A stretch of DNA of 33,477 nucleotides from an uncultured Clostridia bacterium (GTDB taxonomy: Bacteria; Bacillota; Clostridia; Oscillospirales; Oscillospiraceae), in NCBI GenBank assembly GCA_946411475.1, contig CAMKED010000012.1, positions 1 to 33,477 on the forward strand. The letters run 5' to 3'. How positions within the stretch are numbered: the first letter of the stretch is position 1; the number at the start of each line of letters is the position of its first letter. The notes under the pieces were generated by a model. That model did not search any database, was not told the origin of the DNA, and saw nothing but the letters and a program-made list of their open reading frames with translations. Positions 19,925-22,378 of the stretch are shown piece by piece. The position numbers were made by a program, and so were the translations under genes.

Positions 19925-20695
19925 ATGGAAAAACGCACAACCGTCCTGGTTGCGGACGGAAGCGAGGAGTTTTGCATTCAGCTTTCCAAGGCACTGCAAA
20001 ACGGCGGTTATCAGGTAGTAGGAACTGCGACGGACGGACAGTCCGCCCTGGAGCAGCTCAAAGCCGTTGAGCCGGACGTCCTGATTCTGGACTTGATGCT
20101 CCCTAAAATGGACGGAGTCACGGTACTGAAAAACATGCCGCAGAAGAATCGCCCCAAACTCTTGCTTATGGCTGCCTTTGCCACGGATTACGTTGCCGGC
20201 GTCGCGGCGTCGGTTGGCGCGGATTATCTGATGCTGAAGCCGGTTCTGCCGCAGACTGTCGCAGAACGGCTGGAGGAAATCATCCGGACGGACCGTTCGG
20301 CCGATCGCCGCAAGAGCGAGGAGCCGGATATTGAAACCATGGTCACGAACGTTATCCACGAGATTGGCGTTCCGGCCCATATCAAGGGCTATCAATATCT
20401 GCGCGAGGCCATCATCATCGCCGTGGGCGATATGGAGGTCATCAACGCCATCACAAAGGTGCTGTATCCGCAGGTGGCCAAGGCGTTCTCCACGACGCCG
20501 TCGCGCGTGGAGCGAGCGATCCGCCACGCCATCGAGGTGGCCTGGGACCGCGGCGACCTGGATACGCTCCAGCGCTTCTTCGGCTACACGGTCTCCAACA
20601 CAAAGGGAAAGCCAACCAATTCAGAGTTTATCGCCCTGATTGCCGACCGTCTGCAGCTCCAGCTTCGCAGCGGCACCTTGAAAGCCGCGCAGTGA
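19925..20695 (+). CDS. spo0A: Sporulation master regulator Spo0A
   Basis: Receiver domain ([12 protein letters not shown]) plus Spo0A C-terminal domain [24 protein letters not shown]...[24 protein letters not shown]. Confidence 0.97.
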
Positions 20696-20720
20696 TCCCA
20701 ACCGCAACGACCTGCGATAC

Positions 20721-20760
20721 AACGACCTCCGGCGCTTCTTGGAAAGCGTCGGAGGTCGTT
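20721..20760 (+). terminator. Rho-independent-like terminator after spo0A
   Basis: aacgacctccggcgctt...aaagcgtcggaggtcgtt stem. Confidence 0.65.
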
Positions 20761-20774
20761 GCTTGTTACTGTTT

Positions 20775-20933
20775 ATACTGAACTCCCATAAAAAGATTGA
20801 AAAATGTTCTGAGCAGGAATTGCGCCAGACGAGGCGGAGGACGCAGGCGGGCTTGACGCCCGGCAAGGACGACAACGAAGTATGACACAATTCCTGCCGG
20901 AACAGGTTAAAGGTTTCTATGGGAGTTCAGTAT
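20775..20933. repeat. 159-bp element with perfect 16-bp inverted termini; MITE-like or structured RNA candidate
   Basis: atactgaactcccata / tatgggagttcagtat; inner caggaattg / caattcctg; purine-rich centre with gggcttgacgccc hairpin. Confidence 0.7.
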
Positions 20934-22378
20934 TAATGCTTCGCCCAAGTGGACGGTGACAGGGAAATCAGCATGGGATAGATCTCCAGTCTGCCGAACA
21001 GCATGGCGACGGAAAGAACGATCTTGAAGAACGGCGCATAGCCGGCGTAGCTGGCGGCAGGGCCCACGAGATTGAGGCCGGGGCCGATGTTGTTATAGCA
21101 GGCGGCGACGGCGGTAAAATTGGAAACGCCGTCGAAGCCGGGCTGGAAGGAGACAATGAACCAGAACGCGGCAAACAGCACAATATAGAGCGCAAAATAG
21201 GTGCCGATGCTGATCAGGGTCGGGCTGTCCACGGGCTTGCCCTCGAAGCGGACAGAGGTCACGGAACGCGGGTGGAGCAGGTGCCGGATCTCCCGGCGGA
21301 TCGTTTTGTACAGCAGCACCACGCGGGAGACCTTGAGGCCGCCTGCCGTGGAGCCGGCGCAGGCGCCGATGAACATGAGCAGCACCAGGATCATCCGCGA
21401 TACCGTGGGCCATTCGTCGAAGTTCACCGTGGAGAAGCCTGTCGTGGAGGAGATGGAGGTCACCTGGAAGTAGGCGGCCCGGATCCCGTCTGCCGTATTG
21501 CCGACCTGCGGCGTGACGTTCACGGCGATCAGACCCGTTGCAATAAAGACGATGGCGAGGTAGGTCCAGAGCTCCTCACTGCGCAGGGCCGAGCGGAAGC
21601 GCCGCATGGCAAGCAGGAAGTAGAGGTTGAAGTTGACGCCGAAGAGCATCATAAACACCGCGATGACCCACTGCTGATAGGGTGTGTAGTCGGCAAGACT
21701 GGCAGCCTTCATGCCGAAGCCGCCGGTGCCGGCGGTGCCGAAGGTGTGGATCGCGCTGTCAAACAGCGGCATCCCGCCCGCGACGAGGAGGACCAGCTCG
21801 ATCGCCGTCATGACGATATAGAGCAGATAGAGAGTTTTCGCGGTATCCCGCAGCTTGGGGGAGAGCTTGCCCATCGTGGGGCCGGGCATTTCGGCCCGGA
21901 GCACGTGGATTGTCCGCCCGGAGAGGTTCGGCATGATCGCCACCATCAGGACCAGCACGCCCATGCCTCCGATCCAGTGGGTAAAGCTGCGCCAGAACAG
22001 CATGGAGCGGGACATGGCCTCCACGTCGGTGAGGATGGAGGCGCCGGTGGTGGTGAAGCCGGAGACCGTCTCAAAGAAGGCGTCCACGAAGCTGGGGATC
22101 TCCCCGCTGATGACGAAGGGCAGGGCGCCGACCGCGGAGACGATCAGCCAGGCGAGCGCCGTGACAAGGAAGCCCTCCTTGGCAAAGATCACCTGGTTTT
22201 CGGTGTGGCAGAGCTTGCTCAGCAGCAGGCCGAGCCCAATGCAGAGGGCAATGGTGAGCAGAAACGGAACCGTCCCGCCGTCCCAGTAATAGACGGAGAC
22301 GAACAGCGGCAGCAGCAGCAGTCCGCCCTCCAGCAGCAGGATCCGGCCAATCAGGGAAAAGACCATTTTCCGGTTCAT
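20933..22378 (-). CDS. TrkH/KtrB family potassium transporter subunit
   Basis: ETVSGFTTTGASILTDVEAMSRSMLFWRSFTHWIGGMGVLVL, GACAGSTAGGLKVSRV. Confidence 0.95.
   Translation of the reverse strand: MNRKMVFSLIGRILLLEGGLLLLPLFVSVYYWDGGTVPFLLTIALCIGLGLLLSKLCHTENQVIFAKEGFLVTALAWLIVSAVGALPFVISGEIPSFVDAFFETVSGFTTTGASILTDVEAMSRSMLFWRSFTHWIGGMGVLVLMVAIMPNLSGRTIHVLRAEMPGPTMGKLSPKLRDTAKTLYLLYIVMTAIELVLLVAGGMPLFDSAIHTFGTAGTGGFGMKAASLADYTPYQQWVIAVFMMLFGVNFNLYFLLAMRRFRSALRSEELWTYLAIVFIATGLIAVNVTPQVGNTADGIRAAYFQVTSISSTTGFSTVNFDEWPTVSRMILVLLMFIGACAGSTAGGLKVSRVVLLYKTIRREIRHLLHPRSVTSVRFEGKPVDSPTLISIGTYFALYIVLFAAFWFIVSFQPGFDGVSNFTAVAACYNNIGPGLNLVGPAASYAGYAPFFKIVLSVAMLFGRLEIYPMLISLSPSTWAKH

Follow-up and report, generated by a model that had tools for sequence, protein, structure and literature searches.

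What fills the gap between spo0A and trkH in the window (the whole 33,477-nucleotide stretch analyzed here), a mobile element, a structured RNA, or both? A preliminary description, made from the sequence without database searches, had left the choice between a MITE-like element and a structured RNA of 159 bp. Comparison with relatives bears out both proposals, the first through copies, target duplications and empty sites, the second through compensatory covariation and strand-specific wobbles in relatives across the class.

A MITE-type element at the trkH stop codon

The two genes are convergent. spo0A, with the Pfam domains Spo0A_C and Response_reg, lies at 19925–20695 on the + strand, and trkH, identified by Pfam TrkH, at 20933–22378 on the − strand. 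The gap between them houses the element directly beyond the spo0A terminator hairpin (20720–20761, + strand), which is host sequence upstream of the insertion and outside the element. All the pieces initially described were found in place, including a second stem caggaattg/caattcctg at 20814–20822/20888–20896. The perfect 16-bp ends are also present, but their outermost bases (A 20775 and T 20933) belong to a TTA target-site duplication. The element proper is therefore the 157 bp from 20776 to 20932, oriented by the strand that carries the conserved RNA fold (+), and its perfect terminal inverted repeats are 15 bp long: TACTGAACTCCCATA on the left (20776–20790, + strand) and its counterpart on the right (20918–20932, − strand). 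According to the sequence and the copy alignment, the left TTA occupies 20773–20775. The right one, for which empty sites give additional evidence, occupies 20933–20935 and is precisely the stop codon of trkH (read on the − strand as TAA), where the right end had been placed from the start.

BLAST identified ten full-length copies in the element's own genome (1.74 Mb, 82% complete), 92–100% identical and five of them fully so, together with about six diverged or partial copies. When these are aligned, the same base stands outside each 16-bp end, always as T-N-A, and the duplication is thus TNA. Among 38 copies of family A from this and other genomes, 37 have identical 3-bp flanks, all of them TNA (TCA 13, TTA 12, TGA 8, TAA 4), in a count made without imposing the TNA rule; the sole exception is CAA/TAA. 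A target-site duplication, proposed as a check, therefore exists and measures 3 bp. The size is held at 157 bp in both own-genome and GTDB copies, and a search with the window element gave matches in 12 of 13 genomes. In three genomes of the same genus (G398, G702, and G372), spo0A and trkH are adjacent without the element; the empty site of the first two has a single TTA where trkH ends. Short, multicopy, devoid of a transposase gene, and having inverted ends, target duplications and empty sites, the 157-bp element is a MITE-type transposon. It is not single-copy and its fold is conserved, the reverse of the outcome named beforehand as contrary to the proposal.

IS1031-group elements prefer TNA and produce exclusively 3-bp duplications (PMC12016507), so that a DDE transposase of the IS1031 kind is the likely motor; related eukaryotic TNA-duplicating groups (PIF/Harbinger-type) are treated in PMC4482050. 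The window element shares the TNA target and the 3-bp duplication with both. Unlike IS5/IS1031 elements, it has no transposase inside, and because its ends TACTGAACTCCCATA are unlike GAACCTGTCTAGTATCT, the published end of one IS1031-group member, we do not class it as a member of IS5/IS1031. We infer that it was probably moved by an IS5/IS1031-type transposase acting from elsewhere. An end-pattern search of 14 genomes, incomplete MAGs from which repeated ISs are easily lost, found no transposase gene between the element's ends, and none of the PF01609 transposases is flanked by them. As candidates for an autonomous parent, this search turned up only MITEs and 28- to 55-bp core-less remnants. 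Ends shared with an autonomous element are not demanded for many accepted bacterial MITEs (PMC2229807).

One core among different ends

An exact pattern for the core retrieved 61 stretches from GTDB genomes. Almost all of these belong to some twelve Oscillospiraceae/Clostridia MAGs, mainly of rumen origin. One of the 61, L044, is a chance coding match. Their ends form several groups, among them A with TACTGAACTCCCATA, B with TACTATTATCCGATAAAA or relatives, and C with TACTAATATTTGATTGAA. The centre, CAGACGAGGCGGAGGACGCAGGCGGGC(T)TGACGCCCGGCAAGGACGACAACG, is nearly unchanged, and the flanking stem alters on both sides jointly. Around this one core we found the ends TACTGAACTCCC, TACTATTATCCG, TACTAATATTTG (TNA), TAGTACTCTGTTAACC (TA), CTAGTGTTCCG and others, and in further genomes the ends are unrelated yet again. 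Genome G123 harbors a further, high-copy group with CTAGTGTTCCG ends, and in G566 the same core sits within TAGTACTCTGTTAACC-ended elements that generate a 2-bp TA duplication. Some elements contain head-to-head double cores; Vescimonas fastidiosa MM35, a cultured isolate, has one of these. These comparisons show that the MITE character and the RNA domain are separable, the domain being common to MITE families with unrelated ends: the ends have been swapped around an RNA core that stayed.

Several loci deserve mention in their own right. In G123 (L101–L111), the CTAGTGTTCCG-ended family has more than 40 matches, mostly identical, and many contigs terminate inside the element, which thus breaks the assembly. 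G566 contains 210-bp versions with an extra hairpin in a core loop (L216–L219), alongside 165-bp versions whose ends are the same. The double-core element of V. fastidiosa MM35 (L298, 19818–20096; about 189,630–189,910 of NZ_AP023416) is unannotated, has ends of about 25 bp (ACCATCGGTTGACAAGGGCAAACA) and lies in an intergenic gap. It is shared letter for letter with G382, and this identical copy shows that the family includes Vescimonas (Oscillospiraceae, Clostridia). A CTAG-type relative on an IMG/VR contig (L151) places the element also on DNA classed as viral. At L238, a related element is apparently inserted in a T-box-like leader, with GGTGGTACCACG and a terminator downstream. The ends of distant families at L165, L169, L174–L176, L244, and L237 resemble tRNA T-arms (GGGGTTCGAATCCC). 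The idea of a tRNA or tmRNA raised by such right ends was dropped, as ARAGORN finds none in those tested among L165–L180.

Outside these genomes, the whole element matched nothing in phage and plasmid collections. The 51-nt core consensus likewise had no match in the phage collections and a single partial one, from Vescimonas, in the plasmid collections. In 121 genomes of the family, the exact core pattern recovered the own genome only; this pattern was too strict, and its result was overturned by a covariance model.

Covariation and strand of the fold

In the window copy, a hairpin fold extends over the entire element, and its energy departs strongly from dinucleotide shuffles on either strand (z = −9.3 for + and −10.5 for −). 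The domain conserved among relatives is about 90 nt long. On the + strand, covariation delimits an outer stem with arms at 20813–20830 (5') and 20880–20897 (3'), whose pairing is kept and whose sequence differs among families. It encloses a near-invariant G-A ladder of tandem GA/AG mismatches with single Watson-Crick pairs between them (5' side 20831–20845, 3' side 20865–20879) and an apical hairpin (20846–20864) with the loop UUGAC in the window copy and C-UGNC-G in most relatives. Covariance model R1, built from 33 sequences and applied at E≤0.001 per genome, gave matches in the family for at least 118 of 401 genomes, from 58 of 106 genera, and in the class for at least 40 of 291, from 30 of 181 genera; as 10–14 candidates were scored per genome, these counts are lower bounds. 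The centre, for which a search in relatives had been advised, thus recurs in family and class. Its carriers are MITE-like repeats with TNA, TA and other types of sites.

Among 30 diverse R1 matches, 94.5% of cells are paired. Double compensatory changes occur at 21 of 26 pairs, where shuffles give 12.3. Covariation scores 0.519, compared with 0.153 for shuffled and no more than 0.093 for slid alignments. Single pairs within the ladder covary too (29-66, 32-63, and 35-60). Almost all the ladder mismatches are GA or AG, apart from a C-A that stays constant. Some distant relatives (L241, L249, and L253) have a Watson-Crick helix in place of part of the ladder, which is therefore not universally required; such replacement is as expected if the overall helix is what matters.

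Several observations indicate the strand. In three sets of matches, G-U outnumbers C-A (34:4, 51:9, and 19:1), which points to the + strand, these alignments having come from a strand-specific model; the asymmetry is weaker in alignment A1 because column 16-80 is mostly C-A. Unconstrained RNAalifold of alignment A2 gives −40.9 kcal/mol on the + strand, where the stem, ladder and hairpin are largely regained, and −20.0 kcal/mol on the − strand. Folded singly, 28 of 30 sequences do better on the + strand. As far as comparative data can tell, covariation shows the core to be a conserved folded RNA domain, apparently read from the + strand. A coding role for the centre was set aside, since a 1-nt core deletion in family D makes a kept reading frame unlikely.

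These data bear on two alternatives. The palindrome could be the usual hairpin of an ordinary MITE, with a centre shared by common descent, ends recombined and no function. Bacterial MITEs do generally form long stem-loops (PMC2229807), and multiple copies, inverted ends and duplications fit this view. Drift, however, would break the stem rather than swap its pairs, and the double-changed cells number 143, whereas shuffles yield 42. A DNA palindrome would not be expected to favor G-U over C-A on one strand, nor to keep G-A mismatches nearly invariant across genera. We consider this alternative quite improbable and strongly disfavored. The second alternative keeps the fold but assigns it to DNA, as an extruded + strand hairpin recognized in transposition or replication. 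The hairpin covers the whole element, DNA too accommodates G-T wobbles and tandem G-A pairs stably, and the window copy showed no conserved promoter. Against this, duplications of this kind typically mark double-strand DDE transposition, one core occurs in both TA- and TNA-duplicating families, and strand-specific G-U tolerance together with the C-UGNC-G loop is more RNA-like. A single-stranded DNA form thus seems to us unlikely, and we favor a folded RNA.

Neither the window element nor the cores of 20 distant loci match any Rfam 15 model, and our literature search gave no report of Clostridia MITEs that contain a conserved RNA core. The core therefore appears to be a new RNA family in the sense that it has no Rfam match in the stretches searched, and many genomes from gut and rumen carry it.

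Role of the RNA and meaning of the core

If the core is an RNA, whom does it serve? Each of the four TNA triplets is a stop codon on one or the other strand. Twelve of 37 noncoding insertions with clean duplications lie exactly on the stop codon of an ORF 150 aa or longer, versus 8.3% expected from noncoding TNA sites, an excess of about fourfold (p = 3e-5) obtained with a simple ORF caller and copies that are not fully independent. The insertions concerned are those at window positions 20933–20935 and at L010, L016, L040, L046, L054, L066, L069, L081, L083, L096, and L117. The excess reflects either a target preference or a survivor effect, which the count does not separate. It could also be read as the mark of a host cis-acting RNA, a terminator, 3'-UTR stabilizer or antiterminator, which the element would supply to the neighboring gene. 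The position of the window copy between convergent genes, beside a terminator, would suit such a role, as would a copy that two Vescimonas (g37) species retain at a shared rpsN-like site (L242 and L247). Yet TNA targeting and harmlessness also account for the stop-codon excess, and site occupancy differs between species. Moreover, the neighbors' orientations look random: around 115 copies, the flanking genes are ++ in 31 cases, −− in 22, +− in 22 and −+ in 20, and the lack of a clear bias argues against a fixed cis-regulatory task. A host cis-acting RNA is in our opinion very unlikely. At L242/L247, the diverged core by the apparent rpsN 3' end suggests long retention or domestication of that copy.

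Full copies reach up to 23 per genome, and core-less derivatives occur as scattered singles. The core is found in every amplified family and location appears indifferent, which suggests selection on the element's spread or on its tolerance. Core-less remnants of 28–55 bp with the same ends were seen at L206, L212, L213, L203, and around position 2637 of L100. The one in the own genome, on contig 21, combines a B-type left and an A-type right end and also lies on a stop codon. L206 has perfect duplications, and with such derivatives the core could be dispensable for transposition itself.

The reading that we regard as probable joins a MITE at the trkH stop codon, a covarying RNA core, swapped ends, and a role of the RNA in self-propagation. 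A TNA-duplicating transposase provided from elsewhere, probably of the IS5/IS1031 type, would have inserted the MITE at the TTA of trkH. The + strand RNA is predicted to fold into the variable, paired outer stem, the G-A ladder between single pairs and the apical hairpin, and across Clostridia the ends have changed while this domain is retained. The RNA would be required for the element itself to spread or be tolerated, not for the adjacent genes, possibly through binding to a host or transposition protein that is widely conserved. More tentatively, we propose a mobile RNA domain that may enter the ends of any available DDE transposon, the RNA being what is selected and propagating through a class-wide protein partner.

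The Correia/NEMIS, ERIC, RUP, and CIR repeats resemble the window element in size, inverted ends, duplications and hairpin: they are 100–200 bp long, have inverted, TA-type ends, duplications and stable hairpin transcripts, and some exert RNA-level effects or contain a conserved internal motif (PMC2229807). According to the same review, they are confined to particular species or groups (PMC2229807); the Clostridia core, in contrast, covaries and is class-wide among unrelated ends. Coxiella QMITE1 likewise combines a conserved core with variable ends and is transcribed, but it belongs to one species, and the available portion of its description reports no covarying RNA domain (PMC5896051). Our literature search found nothing similar to a class-wide covarying core inside MITEs.

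In eukaryotes, SINE superfamilies retain a shared central domain while both ends change between families. The kept centre is common to these and the Clostridia elements. SINEs are retrotransposons, whereas the latter have DNA-transposon ends and duplications. MITEs are commonly regarded as dead, pared-down transposons, with the ends as their defining feature. In the Clostridia elements, what is conserved is a folded RNA at the centre, and the ends and the insertion chemistry change across the class, which raises the question of why a DNA-only parasite would need an RNA. If our more tentative reading is true, these elements would be a bacterial counterpart of SINE superfamilies with a shared central domain, for which transposon ends are interchangeable.
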